22,032 bases of DNA from the IMG/VR virus record IMGVR_UViG_3300023301_000127, positions 1 to 22,032 of that record; one strand, written 5' to 3'. Origin of the DNA: a virus. The notes below the pieces were generated by a model. The model had not been told where the DNA came from. It made no database searches and saw nothing but the letters and a program-made list of their open reading frames with translations. Of this stretch, positions 1,297 to 21,073 are shown piece after piece (the first letter of the stretch is position 1; each line of letters opens with the position of its first letter). A program made the translations under genes and the position numbers.

Positions 1297-1914
1297 TTAA
1301 CATAGAGGGCAAGGGCACACACCCGTGGAGTTACAGATTATATCAGTGATAAGGGAATTGATCTTACTGTAGTCTTTCAATGATTGATATTGTTTTGATT
1401 CTGCTAATGACATATATGCGTTGGGGGTTGAAGGAACACTAACTAGATCAAATGCTACTAGTTCAAAATCATCTTGTACTTCAACAGTTTCACCAATTTG
1501 TTTAACTGATCCCATACCACGAGATGAAATACCTACGGGGATATTTGCAGCAATTAATTCTTGAGCAATTTTACCTGCGGGGGTATTTAATAACATTAAT
1601 TCACCCATCACATTATTACCATCCCACCATACTCTGGTAATATTGTGAGAAACATTACTTAAATTAACAATTGATGATTCGGGATGATCTAATTCTCCCA
1701 TAGCAGTGTTAGATTTTACGGGGCCTTGAATATATTTCTCAATTTGTTTTTCTAATATTTCTCTAGGATAAACACGACCATTACCGTTTTTTGCTTCTGC
1801 TTCTTGTAATTTACCTTTAATACGCATCCTACCATCACTCACCGATTTAACTTCGATTAATGATAATTTAGCTATGTGAAAGGGGGTATGATCTATCAAT
1901 AATATTTTACTCAT
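1297..1914 (-). CDS. 21: Prohead core protease gp21
   Basis: This 205-residue protein is the T4 gp21-type serine protease that digests the scaffold and trims capsid and internal proteins after (L/I)xE motifs. Landmarks align with T4 gp21 in order: NGNGRVYPREILEK (44-56; T4 has a NRNKRLYPKRILEK-like block), MGELDHP with the likely catalytic His77, GISSRGMGS (128-136) with the likely nucleophile Ser130 or Ser131, and VPSTPNAY near 160-170. Length is close to T4 (212). The last 12 residues are odd: four cysteines in a CNSTGVCPCPLC tail that I do not know from T4. The gene follows the leader-only gene by 13 bases and is followed by a terminator. The start at 1914 is the only upstream ATG giving a full N-terminus; the leader is AT-rich without Shine-Dalgarno. 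Confidence 0.93.
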   Translation of the reverse strand: MSKILLIDHTPFHIAKLSLIEVKSVSDGRMRIKGKLQEAEAKNGNGRVYPREILEKQIEKYIQGPVKSNTAMGELDHPESSIVNLSNVSHNITRVWWDGNNVMGELMLLNTPAGKIAQELIAANIPVGISSRGMGSVKQIGETVEVQDDFELVAFDLVSVPSTPNAYMSLAESKQYQSLKDYSKINSLITDIICNSTGVCPCPLC

Positions 1915-2038: not shown

Positions 2039-3154
2039 CTATATACGTATGTCACCTTTAACACCAAGTGCCATTGTTTTAATTTGTTCTATAGTGTTAT
2101 TTTTTGATAATGGGGTATTTTGTAAATAAAGCTCACCTCCAACAGTTAATCCTTGTGGTAATGAGGTGATTGAGGTATTTTGTAAATAAAGCTCACCTCC
2201 AACAGTTAATCCTTGTGGTAATGAGGTGATTGAGGTATATTGTAAACTAAGATCACCTCCAACCTTTAAATCTTGTGGTAATGATGTTATTTTAGTATTA
2301 TATAAATCAAGATAATCTCCAACAGTTAATCCTTGTGGTAATGAGGTTATTTTAGTGTTATATAAATCAAGATAACCTCCAACAGTTAATCCTTGTGGTA
2401 ATGATGTTATTTTAGTGTTATATAAATTAAGATCACCTTTACCTCCATCCTTTATGTATTGTTGGATTTTTTGCTGCCCCTTCATGTCAGTCATATTATC
2501 ATCATCATCATCAATCATCTCTTTCATTATCTTACGAACCATTTCTTTTAACTTATGTTTTTGTGATTTATCTTTATCTTCTAATCTTAGACCTCTATCG
2601 CTGGTTCTTAATTCATCTAAATTTATACGTATGTCACCTTTAACACCAGGAGCCATTGTTTTAATTTGTTCTATAGTGTTATTTTTTGATAATGGGGTAT
2701 TTTTTAAATTAATATAACCTCCAACAGTTAATCCTTGTGGTAATGAGGTTATTAGGGTATTTTCTAAACTAAGATCACCTCTAACAGTTAATCCTTGTGG
2801 TAATGTGGTTATTTTAGTGTTATATAAATAAAGAGAACCTCCAACAGTTAATCCTTGTGGTAATGAAGTGATTGAGGTACTCTGTAAATAAAGATTACCT
2901 CCAACCTTTAAATCTTGTGGTAATGAGGTGATTGGGATATTAGATAAATCAAGATAACCTCCAACAGTTAATCCTTGTGGTAATGATGTTATTTTAGTGT
3001 TATATAAATTAAGATCACCTTTACCTCCATCCTTTATGTATTGTTGGATTTTTTTATGTGTTGCAATTAAATGGTTTTTTCGGCGTTCCTCAGGGGAACG
3101 CCTTGAAATAAGAATCGATTCTTGTTCTATAAGGAGATCTATTAATTTTATCAT
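2039..3154 (-). CDS. Double-cassette LRR-like repeat protein with prohead-targeting-type leader
   Basis: This 371-residue protein is built from modules. Residues 1-10 (MIKLIDLLIE) are a leader like those of T4 internal proteins, with LIE|Q as the proposed gp21 cut. A basic stretch (SRRSPEERRKN) and KKIQQYIKDGGKGDL follow, then five 20-residue repeats of the type ITSLPQGLTVGGNLYLQNTP and a cap (NTPLSKNNTIEQIKTM...GVKGDI). An acidic linker with LKEMVRKIMKEMIDDDD comes next, then a second KIQQYIKDGGKGDL, five more repeats and a second cap. The linker and second cassette copy the C-terminus of the upstream gene (3158-5017) almost base for base. The repeats should form a solenoid like other LPxxLxVGGxLxLxxT LRR-type proteins, so binding to another macromolecule is the likely role. 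It is 3 bases from both neighbours and is probably co-translated. Exact function is unknown; an internal head protein is my inference. Confidence 0.85.
   Translation of the reverse strand: MIKLIDLLIEQESILISRRSPEERRKNHLIATHKKIQQYIKDGGKGDLNLYNTKITSLPQGLTVGGYLDLSNIPITSLPQDLKVGGNLYLQSTSITSLPQGLTVGGSLYLYNTKITTLPQGLTVRGDLSLENTLITSLPQGLTVGGYINLKNTPLSKNNTIEQIKTMAPGVKGDIRINLDELRTSDRGLRLEDKDKSQKHKLKEMVRKIMKEMIDDDDDNMTDMKGQQKIQQYIKDGGKGDLNLYNTKITSLPQGLTVGGYLDLYNTKITSLPQGLTVGDYLDLYNTKITSLPQDLKVGGDLSLQYTSITSLPQGLTVGGELYLQNTSITSLPQGLTVGGELYLQNTPLSKNNTIEQIKTMALGVKGDIRI
2112..2435 (-). repeat. 60-bp tandem repeats, array 1 (second cassette of the double LRR-like gene)
   Basis: Five 60-bp units in strict register, anchored on ccttgtggtaatga. 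Each encodes one 20-residue LPQGLTVGG-type repeat, and two adjacent units (2161-2220 versus 2101-2160) are almost identical. Confidence 0.92.
2433..2578 (-). repeat. Acidic-linker dispersed repeat, copy A (146 bp)
   Basis: Near-identical to 3492-3634, differing by a few substitutions and one 3-base (tca) unit that adds an Asp codon. It encodes LKEMVRKIMKEMIDDDD through KIQQYIKDGGKG and shows that the tail of the upstream gene was copied into this one. Confidence 0.9.
2693..3015 (-). repeat. 60-bp tandem repeats, array 2 (first cassette of the double LRR-like gene)
   Basis: Five 60-bp units with the same ccttgtggtaatga anchor as the other arrays, flanked by the leader and the NTPLSKNNTIEQIKTM cap. 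Confidence 0.92.
3063..3154 (-). repeat. Leader dispersed repeat, copy 2 (92 bp)
   Basis: Second copy of the leader DNA. Here the hairpin is longest: GGCGTTCC/GGAACGCC, 8 bp with a 5-base loop (3082-3102). The 14-bp palindrome AAGAATCGATTCTT is at 3110-3123. Confidence 0.9.
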
Positions 3155-6515: not shown

Positions 6516-8390
6516 TTATATATCCTTAATATTTTTTTCATCCAATAATGAAGAAACTGAATCGTCTTTGGGTTTAAATACAATGTATTTTAATAAATTT
6601 TCATTTCTTTTATATTCAACTAATGATAAGGGTGAACCGCCTTTTGGTGTACCACTTTCTTCAGGTTTATTAGCAGTATATAGTGTTGCATTTTCTTTAC
6701 TTCCTAATCTATCTTTACCTAAAGGGTCATTTTGAGTTCCAATAATTGATGCTTTTTCTTTAGGACGTCCAACAGGTTGCGTTTCATCATATCCTGGAGG
6801 TACAGGTCCCTTAACGTCACCAACACCATTTCTACCTTTCCCATATAATGTAGCTAAATCATGAGGGGTTCCATATGATTTTCCAGATTGTGCTGGATCA
6901 TTACCTTCGTTTTCTATTTGGGATATCCTGAATGCACGTTTTTTATCCTCAATAATTAAGTCTCTATATTCATCAAATTGATCTTCAGAGAATTGGAATA
7001 TTTTATCATATACCCAATCAGAAGGCATTAGGTTACTATCTTGAATGTCTTTAGCTAATGCTACTTTTTCTTTCCATAATGCTATTTTTTCTTGTTCATA
7101 AATAATTGAAGGAATAGTTAAGGATAATTCAAAATTCCCTAAACTTTCACCATCAAATCCTTGAGTATATAAATGGACTAATGCTATTTTATATAATTCA
7201 GACAACACAATACGTTGAATACGTTCAACTGTTCGGGCAAATCTAATATCCTCAGCAGCTAAAGTAGCTTTACCTGTTAAATCTTTTTCAAATCCAAAAA
7301 ATGCTTTAGGTACTTTTAAAGCAGCTAGCATTTCATCTCTTAAAAATTCAACATCGTCAATAGCATTGTATTCTAAACCTTTAATAGTGTCAATTTTAGT
7401 ATTGGAATTTCCCCCACGTTGAGGAATATAAAAATCCTCCATTAAGTTTTGGACGTTGTATTTTAGATTATAATCTCCAGTATTCTGGTCCATATATGGA
7501 GTTTTTTTCATTTTGTTTTTCAACTTCTCCATATACCCATCAACTTCCGCATTAGGTAAATTACCAATATCAACATAAAATACTCGTTTTTCCGGCGCTC
7601 TAGTGATGCGGTGTAATAACATCGCATCCTTCATTAGAACATATTGTTTATACGTTTTACGTGCGGGTTCAATGTATGATCTTCCGTATGGGAGGTAATT
7701 AGCATCAGTCAATAAACGAAAATGAGCTATTTCATAATTTTCAAATTTAATTTTCCCATCTCTATCTTTAACTCGAGAATTTAACCCCCCGGCAGCTATT
7801 GAAGATGGTTCAATTTTGAAACAAACATATGACGGATTTTGTGGATCTGAACCTTCTTCACGTACCATATCATATATTGATAATGGTGTTACATTATATA
7901 TACCAAAATTTTCAGCAACTTCTAAATGTAGATAAAAATCCCCATATTTACTCATGTTACGAATCCATAACCACAAATTAAATTCTATATTTAATATATC
8001 GTAAAATAAGTTATAAAGTATTTTTTGTATTTTTTCATCAGGGGATCTAATCTGTAGTACTTCTCCCGATTCATTTTTTAGAGTTGCTTCATCAGAAATA
8101 ATATCTAAAGCAGAAGCTATAATAGATTCAGTATCCATTGCTTCATAATCAGTATATAACTGGATACGAAGTGTTTGATAATTTATAGTTGGGTTATACG
8201 GCATATTAGCTCCGTATCTGTGAAGTTTAGTAAATCTATCTATCAAGGCATTGGTTTTAACATTACCAAATGCTTGTATTCTATCAGTATCTAATGTTTT
8301 TAATTGTTTACCACCTACATTTCGGATGATAACATCTGTACTAAACAAACGTTTTAGATTTCCAAATAGTCCTTGATTATTTTCGGCCAT
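6516..8390 (-). CDS. 20: Portal vertex protein gp20
   Basis: At 624 residues this is a T4 gp20-type portal, the dodecameric ring at the unique head vertex through which DNA is packaged and on which the prohead is initiated. Recognisable family features include PYNPTINYQTLRIQLYTDYE near 65-84, DIISDEAT near 100, a WIRNMSKYGDFYLHLEV core near 140-160, and the RITRAPEKRVFYVDIGNLP block near 260-280. KVPKAFFGFEKDLTGKATLA follows near 365. It is about 100 residues longer than T4 gp20 (524), mainly through a Gly/Pro/Lys-rich C-terminal tail from about 500 (YGTPHDLATLYGKG onward). The gene follows gp17 with only 33 bases between them. The start codon has an A-rich leader and no Shine-Dalgarno. Confidence 0.93.
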   Translation of the reverse strand: MAENNQGLFGNLKRLFSTDVIIRNVGGKQLKTLDTDRIQAFGNVKTNALIDRFTKLHRYGANMPYNPTINYQTLRIQLYTDYEAMDTESIIASALDIISDEATLKNESGEVLQIRSPDEKIQKILYNLFYDILNIEFNLWLWIRNMSKYGDFYLHLEVAENFGIYNVTPLSIYDMVREEGSDPQNPSYVCFKIEPSSIAAGGLNSRVKDRDGKIKFENYEIAHFRLLTDANYLPYGRSYIEPARKTYKQYVLMKDAMLLHRITRAPEKRVFYVDIGNLPNAEVDGYMEKLKNKMKKTPYMDQNTGDYNLKYNVQNLMEDFYIPQRGGNSNTKIDTIKGLEYNAIDDVEFLRDEMLAALKVPKAFFGFEKDLTGKATLAAEDIRFARTVERIQRIVLSELYKIALVHLYTQGFDGESLGNFELSLTIPSIIYEQEKIALWKEKVALAKDIQDSNLMPSDWVYDKIFQFSEDQFDEYRDLIIEDKKRAFRISQIENEGNDPAQSGKSYGTPHDLATLYGKGRNGVGDVKGPVPPGYDETQPVGRPKEKASIIGTQNDPLGKDRLGSKENATLYTANKPEESGTPKGGSPLSLVEYKRNENLLKYIVFKPKDDSVSSLLDEKNIKDI

Positions 8391-8423: not shown

Positions 8424-10010
8424 TTATAAAACCCAACTGATATCTTCCATAAATCCCATTCCATTATTTAATTGATAGGGATTATGTTGTCCGCTAGGGA
8501 ATGTAGGATACATACCATCATAACCCGTTTTAGACATTCCTGTTAATGCTGCTCTCGTTATGTCCATTCCTGTTGAATGATATTTCAATGCTGTATCTCT
8601 TAAAAATAAACCAATACCTGCACTTATTGTTAAATCATCATTGTATCCGTTTTGGGATTGTGCTTTACCATTTAACCAAATAAATACTCTCAATTCTTCA
8701 AGTAAGCGTTTTGATCTAAATATAAATACACGTTCGCGAATATACGACTCTAATTTTGCGATGACAAGTGGTCTAGTGCGAGTGGAGTTTGTGAATCCAG
8801 GAACTGTTTGATCATTTTCTAATTTATCAAGATATTTATCCATTGACATGTCTCCATAAGAACGAGGGGAATAATATAGATTTGAATATCCACGTTCTAT
8901 AATTGTATTAACAACATCCCACCCAATATTAGCATTTTCTACTACTAATAATGCATTATTGTATTCGCTAGCAACAGAAACTAACATATGGCCAAATTCA
9001 CGAGTACCGATTTGGGATTTGTATTCAGCTACTTGTTCACAACCTTCAATATCTATAACATGGAATGCTGAAAAATCACTACCATCCCCACGGGCGACAT
9101 CCGCACATATTAAATATTGTTTACTATAATCAGGATATTGCCATATCCAAAAATCGCTTCCCATAAATCTACGTTCAATAGGATCTTGAATAAAATTATC
9201 CTCATAATATTTAAGTGTATCAGGTTCAACAACTGAATTACCTGATCCTAAGAAATCACAATCATATTCTTGAGCAAATTCACGAGCAGACATGGTGTTT
9301 TTTTCAGTTTCATACCATTTTTGATCTCTATCAGGATGTAAATCCCATTTTAATTCAGTAGCATAAAATTCATTATCTTGCATTACTGCATTAGAATATG
9401 TTTTATGAAACCAATTTCCAATACCATTAGGTGATGACAATGCTATAATTCTTCCCCCTGTTGCGATTGTAGGTTTTATACTAGTATAAATCTTATCAAT
9501 ACCTTCAATAAATGCACCTTCATCTATTATTAATAAAGATACAGCATATGAACGACCAGCATCAGATGCTGCTGATGTGGCTATGATTTGGGAATTATTG
9601 GATAATTTTAAAGATAATTTATTATCGGATATAGGTTTTTTACTACCTCTTAACCAACCAGGTAAATTATTGTACATAAATTGTACTTTATCAACCATGC
9701 CTTTAGCTGTTTCTTGTTTAGTAGCAATACATAATATTGTTTTATCTTTATTAAATAACATTGTATGTAATGCATAACCAGCAGCTAATGTTGATATTCC
9801 TAATTGACGAGATTTATTTATTATATTGAAACGATGATTACGGAAATCATCTAATACATTTTCTTGGAATGGATATAGATGGAATAATATTCTACCTTTG
9901 ATGGGATGTTGGATATAACAATATTTTTTGAAAAAATGAATAGGATCTTTACTACATTTAATATATTCTTGGAGGATGATATTTTTTATATTTGCTTGTT
10001 GTTCTGCCAT
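8424..10010 (-). CDS. 17: Large terminase subunit gp17 (packaging ATPase-nuclease)
   Basis: This 528-residue protein is the motor that pumps DNA into the prohead and cuts the concatemer. The ATPase half shows a Walker A-type segment SRQLGIST (67-74), Walker B LLIIDEGAF with D163/E164, and the coupling motif LSSPNGIGNW (191-200). The RNase H-like nuclease half shows the three acidic clusters: ADVARGDGSD (Asp304), VVENANIGWD (Glu358) and GYNDDL (Asp458/459). It is shorter than T4 gp17 (610), mostly at the ends. The Walker A lacks the usual lysine of T4's SRQLGKTT, having isoleucine there. No small terminase (gp16) is visible in the window. A terminator lies upstream, so gp17 likely has its own promoter, possibly near the TATATTTATATA stretch at about 10033-10044. 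Confidence 0.95.
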   Translation of the reverse strand: MAEQQANIKNIILQEYIKCSKDPIHFFKKYCYIQHPIKGRILFHLYPFQENVLDDFRNHRFNIINKSRQLGISTLAAGYALHTMLFNKDKTILCIATKQETAKGMVDKVQFMYNNLPGWLRGSKKPISDNKLSLKLSNNSQIIATSAASDAGRSYAVSLLIIDEGAFIEGIDKIYTSIKPTIATGGRIIALSSPNGIGNWFHKTYSNAVMQDNEFYATELKWDLHPDRDQKWYETEKNTMSAREFAQEYDCDFLGSGNSVVEPDTLKYYEDNFIQDPIERRFMGSDFWIWQYPDYSKQYLICADVARGDGSDFSAFHVIDIEGCEQVAEYKSQIGTREFGHMLVSVASEYNNALLVVENANIGWDVVNTIIERGYSNLYYSPRSYGDMSMDKYLDKLENDQTVPGFTNSTRTRPLVIAKLESYIRERVFIFRSKRLLEELRVFIWLNGKAQSQNGYNDDLTISAGIGLFLRDTALKYHSTGMDITRAALTGMSKTGYDGMYPTFPSGQHNPYQLNNGMGFMEDISWVL

Positions 10011-10034
10011 ATATTGTTACAATTATTATTGTAT

Positions 10035-10042
10035 ATAAATAT
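10035..10042 (-). promoter_or_regulatory. ATATTTAT box upstream of gp17
   Basis: The coding strand reads TATATATTTATATAC, 25 bases before the gp17 ATG and just downstream of the spanin-operon terminator. A new promoter is expected here because the terminator should stop upstream transcripts. The match to a known consensus is weak. Confidence 0.3.
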
Positions 10043-10058
10043 ATAATAGAAAGGGAAA

Positions 10059-10076
10059 ACCCGCATTTATGCGGGT
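10059..10076 (-). terminator. Intrinsic terminator after the spanin-like pair
   Basis: A perfect stem ACCCGCAT/ATGCGGGT is followed on the minus strand by TTTTCCCTTTC. It is GC-rich against a very AT-rich background. It lies 37 bases past the stop of the upstream gene and 49 bases before gp17, separating the two transcription units. Confidence 0.85.
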
Positions 10077-10113
10077 CTTCGAGATTGCACTGTATCCTCG
10101 GGAGAAGAGAATG

Positions 10114-10536
10114 TTATTTAGTTATATATAAATATGTTAATGCTGTTAAACCAATAGTAAACCCTAATTTAGTATAAAATCCTTTCACTTTAGCCTTTCT
10201 TAAATCTTTTTGCAAAGTATTAGTCATATTTTTATATGCTGTTGATTGTAAATCATAATCATTAGTCATTTGTTTCCAATGACCATCTTTAATTTCATAT
10301 TGTTGAATTATGGAAGATTGGATTAATAATTGATTTTCCAAATTTACAACTAATAATTGAGTTTTGATTAGTTCTAATTTAACACCATCATATGCTACTA
10401 AATCTTTAACAACTTGTCTTGCAATTCTGGTAGGTAATATTACTACACTATCTTTATTATTTGTACCGGTCTGTGAAAAAGTGTTGGAGCTCAGTATTAT
10501 TAAACTTATCAACCATATCAACTTTATTTTTTGCAT
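10114..10536 (-). CDS. Signal-peptide protein, probable spanin partner (outer or periplasmic)
   Basis: This 140-residue protein has a classic export signal, MQKIKLIWLISLIILSSNTF then SQTG. An ending in ...FSQ is common in Flavobacteriia. A conserved-looking block follows (DSVVILPTRIARQVVKDL, about 30-47), then a helical coiled-coil-like middle, and a short hydrophobic C-terminal segment (GFTIGLTALTYLYI, about 125-138). The gene starts inside its upstream neighbour in another frame (80-base overlap), the hallmark arrangement of Rz/Rz1 spanin genes that fuse inner and outer membranes at lysis. Against a standard outer spanin, no lipobox cysteine is present. With hydrophobic segments at both ends it may be a single-protein-type spanin or another envelope protein. 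A lysis role is inferred. Confidence 0.6.
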   Translation of the reverse strand: MQKIKLIWLISLIILSSNTFSQTGTNNKDSVVILPTRIARQVVKDLVAYDGVKLELIKTQLLVVNLENQLLIQSSIIQQYEIKDGHWKQMTNDYDLQSTAYKNMTNTLQKDLRKAKVKGFYTKLGFTIGLTALTYLYITK

Positions 10537-10798
10537 TTTGTTTTATAGATTTAATATCTTCTTTTAATAAATCATTTTGATTTTTTAAGTTTATTAATTC
10601 ACCCCCCATCGATTCTATTAATCTATCTGATTCTTTTAGTTCAATTTTTAATGAATCAATACTACATTGTGTTGAATCTATTATTTTTTTATATTTTTCA
10701 ATATTTTCAGGAATAGATGGAGATTTAAAGTAATATATTATAACAATAATTAATATTATTATAATAATTATTATTTGACCTATAATATATTTTTTCAT
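10457..10798 (-). CDS. Inner-membrane coiled-coil protein, probable i-spanin
   Basis: This 113-residue protein has one N-terminal membrane segment (about 5-23, nearly all Ile/Val/Leu) after a short basic MKK. An extended charged coiled coil follows (about 30-95), ending in NNTELQHFFTDRYK. This is the layout of Rz-like inner-membrane spanins, and an ELxxxFTDRY-type ending is frequent in Rz-like proteins. The downstream signal-peptide gene begins within it in a different frame, as in Rz/Rz1. Its own ATG overlaps the stop of the upstream gene (TAATG). No holin or endolysin is visible next to it. Spanin assignment rests on architecture and gene overlap. Confidence 0.62.
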   Translation of the reverse strand: MKKYIIGQIIIIIIILIIVIIYYFKSPSIPENIEKYKKIIDSTQCSIDSLKIELKESDRLIESMGGELINLKNQNDLLKEDIKSIKQNAKNKVDMVDKFNNTELQHFFTDRYK

Positions 10799-11697
10799 TA
10801 TCTTTGATTCTTATCTTCAGGTGCTTTACGACGTTGTAAATAGGGGCTAGAAGCAAATAAATCAGCAATACGTTTTTCTAATTCATCCTTTTTAATTTTT
10901 AATTTATCTTCTTCACCTCTATCTTTAGAAATCATATCATCTCCACTCCTAGAGATTTTTCTATTTTGTCTTAAAGCACTATCAATATTTCTTAAACGTT
11001 CTTTAGCATTTAAAAATTTCATTAATTTATCATATTCTTCATCAGAAATAGAAGACTTTATTTTAGAAGCATCTTTAGGAAGTAATGTAGTAAAATCATC
11101 ATCACCACCTGCATTTCTAGCAGCAGCAAATGAAGCTGCAATTTCTTCTTCACTTGGATCATTTGTAGATGTATTAAATTTCTCCCCATCACCTATAAAA
11201 AAATCTTCAGGATCAATTATTTGTTTTGTTGTTGGGGGAGCGATTTTACCACCTTTATCAATGCGAGAAGCAGCTATACCTGATCCACTTACTGTATCTA
11301 ATACACCTGCTTGAGTTAATGCTACTATTATAGGATTTATTGCTTGTTGAGGACGATCGAATTGATCTTTAGCTATTGTAGCAACAGGAGACTGTCCTTT
11401 ATCTTGTAAATATGAAATAATACCTTGAACTCCTTTTGAATTTTTTACTTTATCGCCTAAACTATCTAATTTAGATAAATCTGCAATCTTATAAAGGATG
11501 GGAATACGAGCCATCTCATTCATATCACCTTCTAATGTTACTGTACCTCTTTGAAGGGTTTGTTTTTCCTTAGCTAATGCTTGTTCTTTTGCTTTAAGTA
11601 ATTCAATAGCTTTATTTTTTACATTTCTATCAGTAGATGCATCTTCATTTAATACTTCTAAAATAGCTTCTTTAATTAATTTTTCTAATTTTTTCAT
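10798..11697 (-). CDS. Head-region protein with leader-like N-terminus and possible winged-helix segment
   Basis: This 299-residue protein begins MKKLEKLIKEAILEVLNEDA, a helical leader with possible gp21 cuts at IKE|A and LNE|D. Residues about 60-135 read like a compact helical domain (MNEMARIPILYKIADLSKLD, then ...SPVATIAKDQFDRPQQAINP...ALTQAGVLD). The pattern of the last part suggests a winged helix-turn-helix, so DNA binding is possible but unproven. The C-terminal half is charged, with a DPEDFFIGDGEKF acidic patch and coiled-coil-like stretches to a basic end (RRKAPEDKNQR). It overlaps the upstream gene by four bases (ATGA) and the downstream one by TAATG, so translation is coupled through the cluster. 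I do not recognise a characterised family. Confidence 0.72.
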   Translation of the reverse strand: MKKLEKLIKEAILEVLNEDASTDRNVKNKAIELLKAKEQALAKEKQTLQRGTVTLEGDMNEMARIPILYKIADLSKLDSLGDKVKNSKGVQGIISYLQDKGQSPVATIAKDQFDRPQQAINPIIVALTQAGVLDTVSGSGIAASRIDKGGKIAPPTTKQIIDPEDFFIGDGEKFNTSTNDPSEEEIAASFAAARNAGGDDDFTTLLPKDASKIKSSISDEEYDKLMKFLNAKERLRNIDSALRQNRKISRSGDDMISKDRGEEDKLKIKKDELEKRIADLFASSPYLQRRKAPEDKNQR

Positions 11698-12220: not shown

Positions 12221-12739
12221 TTATAAATATTTCATAATTTCGAAAATACGTTCTTCTGTAGTGCCTTTAATCTCAACCAATTTAGTTGGTTTAAATTCAT
12301 TTAATAATCCTTTAATAGCAAAATCAATTTGATCCCTATATTTAGGATCAGTTTCCCTAACACCATTATCTTCAATCTCAAGTCCTTCTGGTGATATATA
12401 GAATACAATATCATAATAAGGCATTAATGTAGTAGCTGCTTCTATCAATAATTGTTTACCTCTCCATTTAATTGATTTAGCACTCATTGTAAAAGCACAT
12501 ACATCCCATATAGTACGATCAGTTAATAAATTATCATGTATTAGTTCTTGGGCTCTTTCAGCCATGAATATGAATTGACCTCTAACGGATGAATCTGTGT
12601 TTAATGGAATACCTAAATCTCGTAGGTATTTTGAACGTTCTGTAGAAACAAAATAATCTTTAAATTCAGGGAGTTCTGATAGTGCTTTAATTAATGTGGT
12701 TTTACCTATGGATACAGTTCCGCATAATCCTATTCTCAT
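12221..12739 (-). CDS. P-loop nucleoside/NadR-type kinase (AAA_28-like)
   Basis: This 172-residue P-loop protein has Walker A GTVSIGKTT at residues 7-15 and an LLTDRTIWD motif with Asp74-Arg75, as in nucleoside and nicotinamide-riboside kinases and the AAA_28 ATPases. A basic helix (KSIKWRGKQLL) and FYISPEG near 115 follow. The C-terminal part has a lid-like charged region (DNGVRETDPKYRDQ). Likely activity is ATP-dependent phosphorylation of a small nucleoside-type substrate, feeding nucleotide or NAD supply during infection; the substrate cannot be read from the sequence. It lies 1 base after the upstream gene and 2 bases before the next. Confidence 0.82.
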   Translation of the reverse strand: MRIGLCGTVSIGKTTLIKALSELPEFKDYFVSTERSKYLRDLGIPLNTDSSVRGQFIFMAERAQELIHDNLLTDRTIWDVCAFTMSAKSIKWRGKQLLIEAATTLMPYYDIVFYISPEGLEIEDNGVRETDPKYRDQIDFAIKGLLNEFKPTKLVEIKGTTEERIFEIMKYL

Positions 12740-13377: not shown

Positions 13378-14685
13378 TTAAATAAATATACCAGCATCTT
13401 GAAGAATATACTCAGCAACATATATCCCATGAGCACCACTCACAGTTATACCACGAGCACTTAAAGCATCACCTACAAAATGAACATCTGAATATTTGGT
13501 TAGAGATAGATTAGTGTAATTCACTAATGGTTCTGGGGATAGATATTTTACTTCTCCAATATATATACCCCAATCATCTTCCATTTCAGGAAATATCTTT
13601 TTCATATCATCAATAAAGTTTATAATATATTGAGCATATTTCCCATATGATTCTTTAAATATATTTAATGAGTCTATTTGATGACATAATATTATTTTTC
13701 CTTCAGATGTAAAAGAAGGTTTACGAGATGGCGAATAATATAATCCTTTTCCATCTATTTGACATTGACTAATTATATTACGTGACCATTTAAATGGATC
13801 TTCAATACCTTTAATTTCCATCAATATACCAAAATTAGTTATATCGTTCCTGAATTCTACCCCCTTCTTCGCATGACCATTGTAGCTAATATCTCCATAA
13901 GTTTCTTCAACAGCAACAAAGGCAGCGTTATTATTAGTACAAAAGCTACGAAGAGATACGTTATCAAATTTCTGATATAATTTAAAATCATAACTAATAT
14001 CGATTAATTTTTGGAAATATTTTTGTGGTGCTTCAAAACGTACTCCAATTTGTACTGACTTAGGTTCATCTGGTAATTCATATTGATTGGATAGTTGTTG
14101 GGAGAAATCAATACCACTCTTTCCAACAGCAAATATCAATTTATCATATTCAATACTATGACCGTCATGTAAATATACAGTATGAATATGAAATAATATA
14201 TCAGTTACTTTAGTTTCCCAATGAAATTGGACATTTTTTTCTATTAAATATTGATACCACTTTTTAGCAATTACATGCAGAAAATCAGTACCTATGTGAT
14301 ATACAGGGAATAAACGAAGACCAAAGTAAGGTTTAATAAAATCGGGTTCTTCAACTGGGTTTGAGTACATTATTTTAGAAGGATAAGGATGGAAACGTTT
14401 CCACATTTCAATAGATTGATCCATTAATTCATATGCTTTTTCTTCACCACAATATTTTGATAATTGACCACCTATAGATGTGTGGTAGGTTAATTTACCA
14501 TCAGAGAAGCCTCCAGCTCCTGCGAAACCTATCATTACTTCTTCAGGTTTACGATTATATGGATCTTTTCCTTTATCAATTATAGTGATTAATTCACCTG
14601 GGTAATTATTATCAACTAATTTTAAAGCAGCACTAATACCTGAAACTCCACTTCCTATAATTACAATTTTCTTTGTATATTTCAC
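13378..14685 (-). CDS. FAD-dependent oxidoreductase, COG2509-like (auxiliary metabolic gene)
   Basis: This 435-residue flavoprotein has an N-terminal Rossmann motif VVIIGSGVSGISAAL-like with GSGVSG at 11-16, followed by IIDKG as the acidic end of the ADP-binding fold. GFAGAGGFSDGKLTY is near 53-67. The C-terminal FAD-binding block is VHFVGDALSARGITVSGAHG (401-420). This layout fits the uncharacterised FAD-dependent dehydrogenase family related to HI0933/geranylgeranyl-reductase-like flavoproteins. Substrate is unknown. The start is GTG: an in-frame TAA lies just upstream and the only nearby ATG is out of frame and reads straight into TGA. A TATAAATA sequence (14692-14699) lies 7 bases before the GTG. 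A flavoenzyme in a head-gene region is unusual. Flanking gaps suggest it is an inserted module. Confidence 0.85.
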   Translation of the reverse strand: MKYTKKIVIIGSGVSGISAALKLVDNNYPGELITIIDKGKDPYNRKPEEVMIGFAGAGGFSDGKLTYHTSIGGQLSKYCGEEKAYELMDQSIEMWKRFHPYPSKIMYSNPVEEPDFIKPYFGLRLFPVYHIGTDFLHVIAKKWYQYLIEKNVQFHWETKVTDILFHIHTVYLHDGHSIEYDKLIFAVGKSGIDFSQQLSNQYELPDEPKSVQIGVRFEAPQKYFQKLIDISYDFKLYQKFDNVSLRSFCTNNNAAFVAVEETYGDISYNGHAKKGVEFRNDITNFGILMEIKGIEDPFKWSRNIISQCQIDGKGLYYSPSRKPSFTSEGKIILCHQIDSLNIFKESYGKYAQYIINFIDDMKKIFPEMEDDWGIYIGEVKYLSPEPLVNYTNLSLTKYSDVHFVGDALSARGITVSGAHGIYVAEYILQDAGIFI

Positions 14686-15123: not shown

Positions 15124-16593
15124 TTATGACACCTTTAAAAAGGCAGAACTTATTTTTGTTGATGAAGAAGCATATCTAATTAAATCGGATATAAATTCAT
15201 CTTGTTTGGCAATGTTTGTTTTAACAATATCTCCTAATTTAATTGATAAATATTTAGAAACTTTCCAATCCATGTCCTTTGAATTAAATAAATTAATAAA
15301 TTCTTCATCCGATATGGGTTCTACAATTTTATTATAAATATCCATAAAATCCTTAATTATATTTTCAGGATTATTTGATTCAAAAGATGATTTAGTTTCT
15401 TGTGTTGATGGTAATGGAGGTAAATTATTTAATTTTAAAGCATCATTTATAGCACCCATCCCTACTTTACCGTGAGATGCTGTTTTGCCTTGAATTTCTC
15501 CAGCAAAATTAGTTGTAAAATTAAATGTTCTAAAAGCAACTACACCATCATTATATTTTATTCTAGCTTCTTTACTTTTATTTGATGATATTACTTCTTC
15601 AAATGTGTATCCTTCAACATCTTCTTTAGATATATTATATAATGATAATTCAGGAGTACCACTTATTTTCTTTAAGGATACACCAATTAATTTTCCACTG
15701 GATAATAAATCTATAATAGTATTATTTAATTCATCTAATTTAATGGGAAAATTAATCCCTTTTATGGATGTATCAACTAACCAAATATCAGCAGGATTCC
15801 ATTTATCTGGTTGCATTAATATTTCTTGTTTCTTTGATGCTGTTTTATATGAATTGTAAATATTATTTACAAATTTAGATCCTCTATGAAATTCAAAATT
15901 TGAATTAGGGTAGGAAGAAAGCAAAGCATTTGCAGTATTTATAAAAGTAGGGATCCATGATTCATTTTGTAAAAATGACTTCATTTCTTCTATTGATGAC
16001 GTTACATCAACAAATTTAACAGCATCCTCAATATTTTTATCTGTTATATCTTCCTTACTAATAGAACCTGATTTAATTTTATAAGCAATAGCATTAATAA
16101 CGCATTGAGTTGATTCTTGAATTGATGTATTTAATGATCCTCCTCCACTTCCTTTACCACTACCAAATTCATTAGTTTTTTTAAAGTGTGATAAACTATG
16201 TTTATTCCCCTCAATATCAACTAATATTTGATTTCCACCACCTAAAGATTTATATTTTTTATTCTTTAATAATTCTATAGCATCGGAGGATGATTTTATA
16301 TCTATTTTAATTTTAGATCCATCAATTAATTCAAATTCTTCTCCCTGTAATATTTTTTCTAAAAATTTTTCACCTCTATCTTGATATTGCCCATTAAATT
16401 CTGATTGTTTAGAGAATGGTTTTTCTAACTGAGTAGGGGATAAATTCACTTCGGTAATTTCTTCAGCATCATCAATACCTAATTCATTTAATATTTCATT
16501 AAGTATATTAACTTTTTTAGGATCATTGATATTAACAACTCCATCATAACATCTATAAGACCATTCTAATAATATTTTATCTAAAGTAATCAT
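15124..16593 (-). CDS. Putative packaged nuclease-like protein with leader
   Basis: This 489-residue protein begins MITLDKILLEWSYRC, a leader-like peptide with LLE|W as the candidate gp21 site. A glycine-rich loop, FGSGKGSGGGSLNTS (143-157), precedes a helical ESTQCVINAIAYKIK block. KWNPADIWLVD (264-274) followed by KLIGVSLKK (301-309) resembles the D...(E/S)xK arrangement of PD-(D/E)XK nucleases, with Asp269 and Lys308 as candidate active-site residues and Ser replacing the usual acid. HGKVGMGAINDALKLN lies near 375-390. I have seen similar SGGG...WNPADIW proteins in T4-like phages annotated only as hypothetical or structural, so nuclease activity is inference. Its ATG overlaps the upstream stop (TAATG). 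Confidence 0.7.
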   Translation of the reverse strand: MITLDKILLEWSYRCYDGVVNINDPKKVNILNEILNELGIDDAEEITEVNLSPTQLEKPFSKQSEFNGQYQDRGEKFLEKILQGEEFELIDGSKIKIDIKSSSDAIELLKNKKYKSLGGGNQILVDIEGNKHSLSHFKKTNEFGSGKGSGGGSLNTSIQESTQCVINAIAYKIKSGSISKEDITDKNIEDAVKFVDVTSSIEEMKSFLQNESWIPTFINTANALLSSYPNSNFEFHRGSKFVNNIYNSYKTASKKQEILMQPDKWNPADIWLVDTSIKGINFPIKLDELNNTIIDLLSSGKLIGVSLKKISGTPELSLYNISKEDVEGYTFEEVISSNKSKEARIKYNDGVVAFRTFNFTTNFAGEIQGKTASHGKVGMGAINDALKLNNLPPLPSTQETKSSFESNNPENIIKDFMDIYNKIVEPISDEEFINLFNSKDMDWKVSKYLSIKLGDIVKTNIAKQDEFISDLIRYASSSTKISSAFLKVS

Positions 16594-17078
16594 TATATTT
16601 CTTTTTCAGGAATTTCTTCTTTAGCAGGAACTTTAACATTAATTAAATCATCTCCTAATTCTTTATCTTTATCCTTCACTTCATTTTTAACCTCTGTAGG
16701 AGCATAATTAAGTTCTAAAAGGGAGGTAATGGCATCTGATGCTCTTTCTAGTTCACCTAGGTTAAGTGTATAATATTTTCTACCTGATATTTTGACCATG
16801 AATTCATCTTTACCTAAATAGTAAATATAAAACATTTGTGAATTTATTAAATCAATTTTAAAGGTTGTTGGTTTGGGGGAAACAATTTCTATATGAGAAA
16901 TATACCGTCCAAATGAAGGGGACATAAGTTCTTCTAATATCTTTTTCAAACCAGGAAATCGATATACTAAATACATCGACTTATCTGATTTACGTTGTTG
17001 TTCTTCTTGTTCTTTTAATGCTTTTTGAACGGCAACTCTAATATATTTTTCTAATAATAATTTTTTCATATTTACCAA
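16593..17078 (-). CDS. Putative internal/structural protein with leader-like N-terminus
   Basis: This 161-residue protein has two possible starts. The ATG at 17078 overlaps the upstream gene by 7 bases; the ATG at 17069 lies two bases after the upstream stop and gives MKKLLLEKYIRVAVQKALKE, which fits the leader pattern (LLLE|K) better. The central part (about 35-115) alternates strands, for example YISHIEIVSPKPTTFKIDLI and KDEFMVKISGRKYYTLNLGE. The C-terminal 45 residues are acidic and low-complexity, ending PAKEEIPEKEI. No catalytic motif is seen. It belongs to the tightly packed block with the 17072-17491 gene and the putative nuclease. Function is unknown. Confidence 0.75.
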   Translation of the reverse strand: MVNMKKLLLEKYIRVAVQKALKEQEEQQRKSDKSMYLVYRFPGLKKILEELMSPSFGRYISHIEIVSPKPTTFKIDLINSQMFYIYYLGKDEFMVKISGRKYYTLNLGELERASDAITSLLELNYAPTEVKNEVKDKDKELGDDLINVKVPAKEEIPEKEI

Positions 17079-17491
17079 GCTTTACAAGACCAATAATTTG
17101 CTTTCCATTTAGGTCCTGGGTTTTTGCAATTGTGTCTTTTTCTATAAGCACTTCTACGTTTTGGATTATTTACTTTAATATGCATTCTTTTACCTTTAGC
17201 TGATTTACCACCAAATCCAAAATTTACTTTAATAATTTTACCTTTATCATTTTTAACATATACTTTAAATTTCTTAATATCACCTTGCATTGGTTTATTA
17301 AGAGTTACTGTACGTCCCTGATATTTAGCTTCATTTAAGTTATTATCTTGTTGAAGTTGAGCTAATTCATATAGAAATTCCTCAATCTTGTTTTCACAAA
17401 CATCGAATGTTTCTTCTAAATTAATTTTAACGATTTTTTCCTCTTTAGAATATAATCCTCGTTCAAAAAGAATATCAATTAATTTAATCAT
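17072..17491 (-). CDS. DUF5872-like basic protein behind a cleavable leader
   Basis: This 139-residue protein has two parts. Residues 1-54 are acidic and helical, starting MIKLIDILFE and ending in NNLNE. Residues 55-139 are strongly basic (AKYQGRTVTLNKPMQGDIKK, FGFGGKSAKGKRMHIKVNNP, RHNCKNPGPKWKANYWSCKA). The basic part resembles a short conserved phage domain with an RHNC...NPGPxxKAxYWSCxxW ending, which I believe corresponds to DUF5872. The two cysteines could bind metal or form a disulfide. LNE|A at 52-55 lies exactly at the acidic/basic boundary, so gp21 could remove the front half and leave a DNA-binding-type internal protein. Processing is inference; the boundary and motifs are visible. 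Confidence 0.8.
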   Translation of the reverse strand: MIKLIDILFERGLYSKEEKIVKINLEETFDVCENKIEEFLYELAQLQQDNNLNEAKYQGRTVTLNKPMQGDIKKFKVYVKNDKGKIIKVNFGFGGKSAKGKRMHIKVNNPKRRSAYRKRHNCKNPGPKWKANYWSCKAW

Positions 17492-18356: not shown

Positions 18357-19310
18357 TTATATAAATATGTTACCTTTAACACCAGGAACCATTGTTTTAA
18401 TTTGTTCTATAGTGTTGTTTTTTGATAATGAGGTATTTTGTAAATAAAGCTCACCTCCAACAGTTAATCCTTGTGGTAATGAGGTTATTGGGGTACCCTG
18501 TAAATTAAGATCACCTCCAACAGTTAATCCTTGTGGTAATGAGGTGATTGGGGTATTTTCTAAATCAAGATAACCTCCAACAGTTAATCCTTGTGGTAAT
18601 GAGGTGATTGGGGTAGTATATAAATTAAGATTACCTCTAACCTTTAATCCTTGTGGTAATGATGTTATAGGTGTATTTCCTAAATAAAGATCACCTCCAA
18701 CCTTTAAATCTTGTGGTAATGATGTTATTAGGGTACTAGTTAAACCAAGATTACCTCCAACAGTTAATCCTTGTGGTAATGAGGTTATTTTGGTATTATA
18801 TAAATCAAGACCACCTCCAACAGTTAATCCTTGTGGTAATGAGGTGATTGGGGTATTTTCTAAATTAAGATTACCTCCAACAGTTAATCCTTGTGGTAAT
18901 GAGGTTATTGGAATATCAGATAAATTAAGATTACCTCTAACCTTTAATCCTTGTGGTAATGAGGTGATTGGGGTATTAAATAAATAAAGATTACCTCCAA
19001 CAGTTAATCCTTGTGGTAATGAGGTGATTGGGGTATTTTCTAAATCAAGATAACCTCCAACCTTTAAATCTTGTGGTAATGAGGTTATTGGGGTACTCTG
19101 TAAATTAAGATTACCTTCAACATTTAATCCTTGTGGTAATGAGGTTATTGGGGTACCTTTTAAATAAAGATCACCTTTACCTCCATCCTTTATATATTGT
19201 TGAATTTTTTTCTGTGTTGCAATTAAATAGTTTTTTTGACGTTCCTCAGGGGAACGCCTTGAAATAAGAATCGATTCTTGTTCTATAAGGAGATCTAATA
19301 GTTTTATCAT
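18357..19310 (-). CDS. 12-repeat LRR-like protein with prohead-targeting-type leader
   Basis: This 317-residue protein starts MIKLLDLLIEQESILISRRS, the shared leader (candidate cut LIE|Q). KKIQQYIKDGGKGDL follows, then twelve 20-residue repeats of the type ITSLPQGLTVGGNLYLxNTP and the same NTSLSKNNTIEQIKTM...GVKG cap as the genes 15 kb away. Within repeats, xLxL positions and LP turns are fixed while the residue before L-x-L (N, Y, D, G, E) and the three before the next I (ENT, FNT, QST, TST) vary. That is the pattern of a solenoid with a variable exposed face. Leader, repeat and cap DNA are nearly identical to those at 2039-3154, so exchange between the loci is recent. It overlaps the upstream GAF-like gene by four bases (ATGA). 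Ligand or target is unknown. Confidence 0.86.
   Translation of the reverse strand: MIKLLDLLIEQESILISRRSPEERQKNYLIATQKKIQQYIKDGGKGDLYLKGTPITSLPQGLNVEGNLNLQSTPITSLPQDLKVGGYLDLENTPITSLPQGLTVGGNLYLFNTPITSLPQGLKVRGNLNLSDIPITSLPQGLTVGGNLNLENTPITSLPQGLTVGGGLDLYNTKITSLPQGLTVGGNLGLTSTLITSLPQDLKVGGDLYLGNTPITSLPQGLKVRGNLNLYTTPITSLPQGLTVGGYLDLENTPITSLPQGLTVGGDLNLQGTPITSLPQGLTVGGELYLQNTSLSKNNTIEQIKTMVPGVKGNIFI
18428..19176 (-). repeat. 60-bp tandem repeats, array 4 (twelve units)
   Basis: Twelve in-register 60-bp units with the ccttgtggtaatga anchor. Variation is concentrated in a short window of each unit just after the ATT/GTA junction, which encodes the variable face of the solenoid. Confidence 0.94.
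19219..19310 (-). repeat. Leader dispersed repeat, copy 3 (92 bp)
   Basis: Third copy of the leader DNA, about 16-17 kb from the other two. It carries the CGTTCC/GGAACG hairpin (19240-19256) and the AAGAATCGATTCTT palindrome (19266-19279). Confidence 0.9.
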
Positions 19311-19971: not shown

Positions 19972-20556
19972 TTATAGATTATGAATTTCCTTAAGGTATT
20001 TGATATATCCAGATATTTCTTCTATATTTGAATTTTTATCAATATTACCCCCTGACCATTTTTCAATATCTCCTGCTTCAGTAATGAAAGATTCACTATT
20101 ATTGTTTAAGGCTAATTCCAGCATTAAATCTTCTAATTCTTTAATGTAAATAATAACACCTTTTTGGATGATGTTTTGTTCATATTCTTTATATTTACCT
20201 TGAATTTTTAAATTAGATTCAAATTCAATAACACAATTAAAACACATTTTATGCATGAAATACATTTTTCTATTTAAATCAAAATCTTTTATTGATTTTT
20301 TACAATTAGGACATATTAAAGGTAATTGGAGGATTTTTTTAATTTCATCTAATTTAGATATAGTTTGTTTAATACCACTTTTAATAGTCCAATTTTTATT
20401 ATTTTCTTCCCAAACATCACCTTCATTATGTTCAATATATTTTTTAACATATCCTATTTGTACTCCTGTTTTTGCATTATAATCTTTAGTAATAATGTTC
20501 CTCATTCGGGAAACATCTTTGGTTTTAAAATCCTTTATTAATTTTGATTCAGACAT
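19972..20556 (-). CDS. Zinc-ribbon-containing conserved phage protein
   Basis: This 194-residue protein has an N-terminal block (LIKDFKTKDVSRMRNIITKD, then GYVKKYIEHNEGDVWEENNK and WTIKSGIKQ). I associate this with a conserved T4-like phage family of unknown function. A four-cysteine zinc site follows: CPNC (82-85) and CFNC (105-108) with a 19-residue spacing. The C-terminal half is helical with FITE|AG near 157, a possible gp21 site by chance. The zinc ribbon suggests nucleic-acid or protein contact. It begins seven bases after the HAD gene's stop, so the two are probably co-transcribed. Confidence 0.8.
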   Translation of the reverse strand: MSESKLIKDFKTKDVSRMRNIITKDYNAKTGVQIGYVKKYIEHNEGDVWEENNKNWTIKSGIKQTISKLDEIKKILQLPLICPNCKKSIKDFDLNRKMYFMHKMCFNCVIEFESNLKIQGKYKEYEQNIIQKGVIIYIKELEDLMLELALNNNSESFITEAGDIEKWSGGNIDKNSNIEEISGYIKYLKEIHNL

Positions 20557-20563
20557 AACTTTA

Positions 20564-21073
20564 TTATATTCCTAATTTCTCTAATTGTTTGATTGTATCT
20601 TCTGATGATGAATGGAGAATTCCTATACCACCAGCATCTTTCCATCTTTGTATATTATCTGCTCTATCATCTATTAATACAGAATTAGGAGAAGCATATT
20701 CTTGTTTAAGATTTGCGGGGGTTAATATTAAATTAAATCCAGGAATGTTGATTTCCACCCACATTTGTTTTCCTATTTTTGATGATTTGTCTCTTGAAGG
20801 GGCTGATAGTATATTTGGTTTATACTTTTTAATATAATTCCATAATTGTTTCCCATCAGGCATCCAATGTAAATTTTTCCAAAAGTCAACACCCTTATCC
20901 GTTATTGGTTGCCAGAAATTCTTATCACCTTTAACATTATTCCCTTTAATATTTTTCCCTGTTAATTCTTCATAACCACGTTCAAAATCTACTAATACTG
21001 AATCTAAATCACAATATATTTCATACTTCATTTTTGATGATTTTTCTTTTAAAAGGGAGATTAGTTTTATCAT
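20564..21073 (-). CDS. HAD-family 5'-nucleotidase-like phosphatase behind a leader peptide
   Basis: This 169-residue protein carries HAD motifs: motif I CDLDSVLVDF with nucleophile Asp22 and acid Asp24, a motif II-type Ser in ILSAPSRDK (about 93-101), and motif IV VLIDDRADN (Asp135/136). The arrangement fits the cytosolic 5'(3')-deoxyribonucleotidase (NT5C) family, releasing phosphate from nucleoside monophosphates. The family normally starts at about the MKYEIYCDLD methionine (residue 15). Here 14 residues, MIKLISLLKEKSSK, precede it and match the leaders of the LRR-like and DUF5872-like proteins, with LKE|K as candidate cut. The internal Met15 is an alternative start, but the leader match favours 21073. 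A TATAAATA sequence lies about 20 bases upstream (near 21094-21101). Confidence 0.85.
   Translation of the reverse strand: MIKLISLLKEKSSKMKYEIYCDLDSVLVDFERGYEELTGKNIKGNNVKGDKNFWQPITDKGVDFWKNLHWMPDGKQLWNYIKKYKPNILSAPSRDKSSKIGKQMWVEINIPGFNLILTPANLKQEYASPNSVLIDDRADNIQRWKDAGGIGILHSSSEDTIKQLEKLGI

Follow-up and report, generated by a model that had tools for sequence, protein, structure and literature searches.

The window, i.e., the whole 22,032-nucleotide stretch of viral DNA that was analyzed, carries on its minus strand a leader-bearing nucleotidase gene, a head maturation protease gene, further genes whose products start with a leader, and the remainder of a polyprotein gene. The features are as follows.

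20564..21073, minus strand: leader-bearing HAD 5'(3')-deoxyribonucleotidase gene, 169 aa (ATG-start ORF, PHROG_2643, and fold matches)
21044..21073, minus strand: capsid-targeting leader MIKLISLLKE, codons 1-10 (T4 rule, T4 IPII/IPIII N-termini, enrichment, purifying selection)
21041..21046, minus strand: predicted head-protease cut LLKE↓KSSK, codons 10/11 (inferred from the L/I-x-E rule)
21032..21043, minus strand: linker KSSK, codons 11-14, predicted to be retained on the mature enzyme (leader likeness stops at position 10)
21029..21031, minus strand: Met15, an alternative start present in the window copy only, among the standalone genes inspected
20567..21028, minus strand: HAD nucleotidase fold, residues 16-169 (model pLDDT 90; VIA-align Z 15.2 to 3bwv and 14.9 to 4yih)
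21002..21010, minus strand: HAD motif I, Asp22-x-Asp24, nucleophile and acid/base (invariant in alignments A1 and A4)
20705..20707, minus strand: HAD motif III, Lys123 (invariant in alignments A1 and A4)
20666..20671, minus strand: HAD motif IV, Asp135-Asp136 (invariant in alignments A1 and A4)
1297..1914, minus strand: gp21-type head maturation protease, with the leader as its predicted target (PHROG_207, E 1.9e-57)
2039..3154, minus strand: LRR-like protein, leader MIKLIDLLIE (fits the leader rule)
18357..19310, minus strand: LRR-like protein, leader MIKLLDLLIE (fits the leader rule)
17072..17491, minus strand: protein with leader MIKLIDILFE (fits the leader rule)
15124..16593, minus strand: protein with leader MITLDKILLE (fits the leader rule)
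10798..11697, minus strand: protein with leader MKKLEKLIKE (fits the leader rule)
19972..20556, minus strand: downstream gene, retained next to the nucleotidase in relatives (similar neighbor, by eye, in L045, L053, L083, L092, and phage immuto)
21092..22030, minus strand: rest of a polyprotein with ParB-like and HExxH-type peptidase regions, running off the window end (52-54% identity to the fused proteins of L023/L024/L026)

The nucleotidase was assigned by profile and by structure. PHROG_2643 (5'-3' deoxyribonucleotidase) aligned with residues 14-168 of the window protein (E 2e-27). No Pfam model matched the protein at E 0.1, and PF06941 reached 23.9 bits, against a cut-off of 24.8, with the homologous nucleotidase of immuto, a cultured Flavobacterium phage. 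A PDB sequence search with the nucleotidase alignment (A1) found no match. Although the sequence searches of Pfam and PDB were empty, fold comparison gave matches. The AlphaFold model had a mean pLDDT of 90, with the first strand starting at residue 18 and a pLDDT below 50 for leader residues 6-13. Its top Foldseek match was 2i7d, the human cytosolic deoxyribonucleotidase. VIA-align ranked highest the Staphylococcus epidermidis protein 3bwv (Z 15.2, 142 residues, 2.5 Å) and human cdN 4yih (Z 14.9, 147 residues, 2.6 Å), with human mdN entries near the top at Z about 14.5. A different HAD hydrolase, 3cnh, tied with 4yih (Z 14.9), and most others scored Z ≤12. Residues D22, D24, S93, K123, D135, and D136 were invariant among the relatives, and HAD motifs I-IV are intact. 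Thus, the window protein shares fold and catalytic motifs with the NT5C family (human cdN/mdN, 3bwv; PHROG_2643), but it is a phage protein with a head-targeting leader, too divergent for the Pfam model. Homologues without a leader begin right at the fold (L081 MVEYKIYCDMDG, Atu_ph07, OLIVR1, and XacN1), showing that the fold needs no leader to be complete. Together with the model strand starting at residue 18, this bears out the initial annotation, which had described the added N-terminus as having no part in the fold.

The leader was compared with the capsid-targeting sequence of T4 internal proteins. This sequence is 10 residues long; in IPIII, residues 4 and 7 serve targeting and residues 8 and 10 processing (PMC9026906), and gp21 cleaves after L/I-x-E (PMC9026906). 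In T4, processing is blocked when residue 10 is Asp (PMC9026906). T4 IPII and IPIII, read from NC_000866, both start with MKTYQEFIAE↓A. MIKLISLLKE has Leu at positions 4, 7, and 8 and Glu at position 10; under the T4 rule, L4 and L7 are the targeting positions and L8 and E10 the processing positions. When the rule was applied as M..h..h[LI].E, it fitted 6 of the 24 ORF starts in the window and none of its 110 internal Met sites. At related loci it fitted 29/243 ORF clusters, as against 5/984 internal Met sites and 72/52,054 internal 10-mers. In this phage group, the rule is thus about 23-fold enriched at ORF starts over internal Met. A leader arising by chance was ruled out by these two controls, internal Met sites and internal 10-mers. 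Two enzymes of the window, both in the same gene block, one dehydrogenase-like (13378-14685) and one thymidylate-kinase-like (12221-12739), are leaderless and serve as internal contrasts.

We also determined where the leader ends. Clusters were picked by M[IK]KL, i.e., by the first four residues only and not by positions 5-10. Glu10 was present in 27 of these 30 clusters, compared to 8% of the other clusters, and the likeness stopped at position 10, indicating a leader of 10 residues. The initial annotation had proposed a packaging-type leader of 14 residues like that of the LRR-like proteins; the likeness is borne out by the enrichment of the rule, but the length is not, since only 10 residues are conserved and KSSK is a variable linker. 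In 13 distinct leader DNAs of standalone genes, the leader codons had a pN/pS of 0.36, which indicates purifying selection. Positions 4, 7, 8, and 10 were fixed or conservatively replaced and positions 5, 6, and 9 were free, as expected from T4 mutagenesis. Glu10 was found in 12 of the 13, the exception (L088) having Lys at 10 and Glu at 9. The packaging type of the leader is upheld by its match to the T4 sequence in length, in positions 4/7/8/10, and in the E10 boundary, and by the gp21-type protease of the phage. We strongly infer that the leader marks the protein for the head, by targeting and cleavage. The mature N-terminus KSSKMKYEIY put forward earlier agrees with the product predicted for an L/I-x-E cut. 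The residue after the predicted cut differs among relatives (K, I, V, A, Q, R, W), in contrast to the E↓A of T4 IPII/IPIII. This variability is the main sequence-level reservation on cleavage, and the protease of the window lineage may cut elsewhere.

For the analysis of relatives, we used the best 80 of 404 in IMG/VR; another search added 19, largely from the same contigs. Four layouts were found. First, the nucleotidase is a standalone gene with its own leader, in 18 distinct domain sequences besides the window copy (among the best 80 of 404). Second, it is the C-terminal module after a leader and a zeta-toxin-like P-loop kinase. Third, as the C-terminal module, it is preceded by a leader, an NMNAT-like domain, and an HExxH peptidase; related layouts were grouped here. 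In these fused relatives, CTP_transf_like was at the cut-off in L003 (22 bits vs. 21) and just under it in another protein, and peptidase models were under the cut-off. Fourth, the nucleotidase of L081 is leaderless and lies in a different genomic setting, showing that the fold can function in the cytoplasm as well. The leader is thus indeed carried by a metabolic enzyme, as noticed initially, but the window copy is not alone as a clean case, given the 18 other standalone examples among the best 80 of 404 relatives.

The immuto terminase was the closest in the phage collection (53% identical). Its standalone nucleotidase (gp087, L022:5938-6537) starts, if Met5 replaces the annotated start, with MGNLADLLLE↓ESDF, in exact leader register. 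Judged by this match, which depends on the replacement, the true start is probably Met5, four codons after the annotated one. In immuto, the leader rule fitted 4 of 215 ORFs, the nucleotidase among them, and none of 779 internal Met sites. The rarity of the leader in this phage indicates that a large tagged set is a trait of the uncultured relatives.

The relation between fused and standalone forms is visible in the window itself. The ORF upstream of the nucleotidase aligns with the fused proteins of L023/L024/L026 up to ...NPEIY, where those run on through a linker to the nucleotidase. In a tree of 68 nucleotidase domains, the window copy was sister to the fused L023 (100/77), within a mostly fused group. 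A single origin of all standalone copies with leader was rejected (p-AU 3.6e-6). The position of the window copy among fused relatives and the end of the upstream ORF at their linker indicate that the nucleotidase split off there, and it has its own leader; the direction of this change depends on the tree, in which support for the sister fork is moderate by SH-aLRT. As read from these sequences, the leader was joined to a standalone nucleotidase at least twice independently in related phages. A broken or frameshifted polyprotein gene was also considered as a candidate; it was ruled out by the added leader, the replaced linker, and the 18 other standalone tagged copies (best 80 of 404). A need for the leader is argued most strongly by one finding: the enzyme either follows a tagged protein or carries the tag itself.

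In the fused forms, 38 of the 40 distinct linkers have an L/I-x-E site no more than 22 residues ahead of the nucleotidase, compared to 17% of background windows. All five linker types (IFE/IYE, LAE, LNE, LRE/LQE, and LKE plus INE) contain such a site; because the phages are related, many counts of linkers and leaders are non-independent, but the five types are independent of each other.

Other candidate cargo was found among the leader-bearing proteins. These include a KptA/Tpt1-like protein, a protein-kinase-like protein (Kinase-PolyVal), a zeta-toxin-like kinase, and a protein with a YHYTNYDSA motif (L017:6896-7282, L070:8092-8619, L087:2984-3793, and L092:4357-4944). On L092, whose contig also has a tagged standalone nucleotidase, a further protein (9491-10384) starts with MIKLIDLLKE↓CVIAAV. 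In its family (with relatives in L103-L140), L/I-x-E immediately precedes an invariant Cys in 18/18 distinct members with differing leaders; the background of L/I-x-E in this comparison was 0.7% per position. This family supports L/I-x-E as the predicted cleavage site independently of the nucleotidase linkers. The protein matched no Pfam family, and a PDB sequence search was without match. When modeled from the Cys onward (pLDDT 88), it adopted an Ntn hydrolase fold. Residue 1 of the model aligned with the first mature residue of N-acylethanolamine acid amidase, acid ceramidase, isopenicillin N acyltransferase, bile salt hydrolases, and penicillin V acylase (Z 16-20), which is the catalytic N-terminal Cys of these enzymes. 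If the Cys directly after Glu is the catalytic N-terminus, a cut after Glu would both free and activate the enzyme. According to sequence and model, the head protease may thus activate this Ntn hydrolase in a zymogen-like manner. A literature search on prohead proteases and N-terminal nucleophiles found no such case.

In summary of this evidence, we consider it quite likely that the window gene encodes a T4-type internal head protein with a 5'(3')-deoxyribonucleotidase as cargo, which would be packaged, cut, and delivered with the DNA. The nucleotidase would be made together with the head genes. MIKLISLLKE would bind the prohead core via Leu4 and Leu7, so that the enzyme is built into the prohead, and the gp21-type protease would cut after Glu10 (L-K-E↓K). 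The mature enzyme, starting with KSSKMKYEIY, would stay in the head and enter the host with the DNA. There, it would dephosphorylate nucleoside monophosphates from the onset of infection, alongside other packaged nucleotide- or NAD-acting cargo. In related phages, the nucleotidase would enter the head as the last polyprotein module and would be freed by the L/I-x-E cut just ahead of it. Packing of the enzyme into the particle and its delivery into the bacterium with the DNA are probable from the sequence, and core binding, cleavage, packaging, and injection of this particular nucleotidase appear reasonably likely. Whether the head protease of these phages is a general cargo-maturation enzyme is evenly poised: it would untag many enzymes, cut polyproteins in the prohead and so free the nucleotidase, and activate the Ntn hydrolase via its N-terminal Cys; the particle would deliver ready enzymes, and split genes would acquire the tag. 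A possible purpose at time zero is nucleotide-pool remodeling or the removal of defense nucleotide products. The NMNAT-like partner favors a nucleotide or NAD setting.

The substrate is where an alternative fares best. For dNMPs as the main substrate, an assignment read from fold and motif alone, we see a roughly even prospect. It is possible, but doubtful, that the packaged and injected enzyme acts on something else, such as nicotinamide- or ADP-ribose-derived nucleotides, defense signal nucleotides, or nucleic acid ends, like a polynucleotide kinase/phosphatase. NMNAT-like, zeta-toxin-like kinase, and KptA-like proteins are found as fusion partners or neighbors, and one fused protein matches, among others, a PHROG named polynucleotide kinase. 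The kinase and HAD fusions are also similar in layout to T4 polynucleotide kinase/phosphatase. Against it, the nearest solved folds are specifically 5'(3')-deoxyribonucleotidases, PHROG_2643 is so named, and the homologue of Caulobacter phage Cr30 sits among dNTP genes. It is unlikely that the leader targets the prohead core but the enzyme then acts in head assembly or stays in the particle, without delivery to the host. T4 IPIII mutants do alter head morphology (PMC9026906), but T4 Ip1-3 enter the host by injection and act there (PMC12373910), and the occurrence of the leader on unrelated enzymes (zeta-toxin-like kinase, protein-kinase-like protein, KptA-like protein, and Ntn hydrolase) is better suited to effectors. 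We consider it very improbable that the leader forms a generic amphipathic helix at the N-terminus, e.g., for host factor or membrane binding, unrelated to gp21. Residues 3-12 are predicted to be helical, at low confidence, but the likeness stops sharply at Glu10 and fits the four T4 functional positions, and L/I-x-E also occurs where a cut would release the nucleotidase or expose the Ntn nucleophile.

The least probable reading is a plain cytoplasmic phage nucleotidase starting at Met15, with the upstream codons as a chance open frame: the A-rich context upstream of Met15 equals that of Met1, homologues without leader begin at the fold, and the leaderless Cr30 gene has genes for ribonucleotide reductase and dCMP deaminase nearby, but 18 other standalone copies (best 80 of 404) also have a leader, nearly all without another start before the catalytic Asp, the leader is under purifying selection, five further window ORFs fit the leader rule, and the distance to the upstream gene is 18 bases from Met1 vs. 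60 from Met15. A check of every codon from the leader Met to the catalytic Asp in 15 standalone relatives found no further ATG, GTG, or TTG, apart from an in-leader ATG in L092. This and the pN/pS value make initiation at Met15, which would have undone the initial annotation, very unlikely, and the leader is taken as translated.

A packaged and injected nucleotidase would extend a known principle. T4 IPI/IPII/IPIII (Tequatrovirus) likewise have a leader of 10 N-terminal residues, with hydrophobic residues at 4 and 7, L/I at 8, and Glu at 10, on unrelated proteins matured by a gp21-type protease. However, Ip1-3 are restriction-enzyme inhibitors, and the cargo proposed here is a HAD nucleotidase with a tag variant, MIKLxxLLxE, in a distant T4-like lineage with immuto as its nearest cultured member. 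T4 Alt, a packaged ADP-ribosyltransferase, is a head-packaged, gp21-cut, and injected enzyme, as proposed for the window protein on the basis of its sequence, although enzyme and domain differ. The fused relatives resemble polyvalent proteins (Iyer et al. 2017, PMC5512222), which are multidomain, combine peptidase and nucleotide-acting modules, and are predicted to be injected. In contrast to these, sites of the head-protease type bracket the modules here, the leader is of T4 type, and in the window the modules are split into genes. Virion packaging of NAD- or ADP-ribose-acting proteins in myoviruses has been argued from genomes (PMC9503650), and the abstracts retrieved in our literature search described no packaged nucleotidase. 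The T4 principle is known; cargo class and lineage are new, with polyprotein fission and possible zymogen activation.

The head-targeting signal of T4 has been known chiefly from small proteins that counter restriction; these data extend it to a widespread uncultured T4-like group, and M..h..h[LI].E lists candidate injected enzymes from sequence alone. The split of a polyprotein at an L/I-x-E site, after which the freed gene bears a tag, provides natural evidence for the importance of the tag. If true, the L/I-x-E↓Cys junction would let a viral assembly protease turn on an enzyme, the Ntn hydrolase. Much of the model is opened to testing by immuto, which is cultured on Flavobacterium sp. LMO8.

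Further observations were made in the window and beyond. The LRR-like repeat proteins at 2039-3154, 3158-5017, and 18357-19310, two of which have a leader, have long near-identical stretches in common (DGGKGDLxLYNTKITSLPQGL), and the repeat block is present in a second copy inside the 2039-3154 protein. The ORF at 16593-17078 was called with a TTG start; LVNMKKLLLE is then in leader register, favoring TTG. In the marine, T4-like Melnitz phage (L021:1590-3542 and 7982-8377), two proteins, one containing a GRFNPPTTGH motif and another small one, start with the near-T4 leaders MKKFSEIIEA and MKNFKNHIAE, which suggests that this phage has tagged cargo too.
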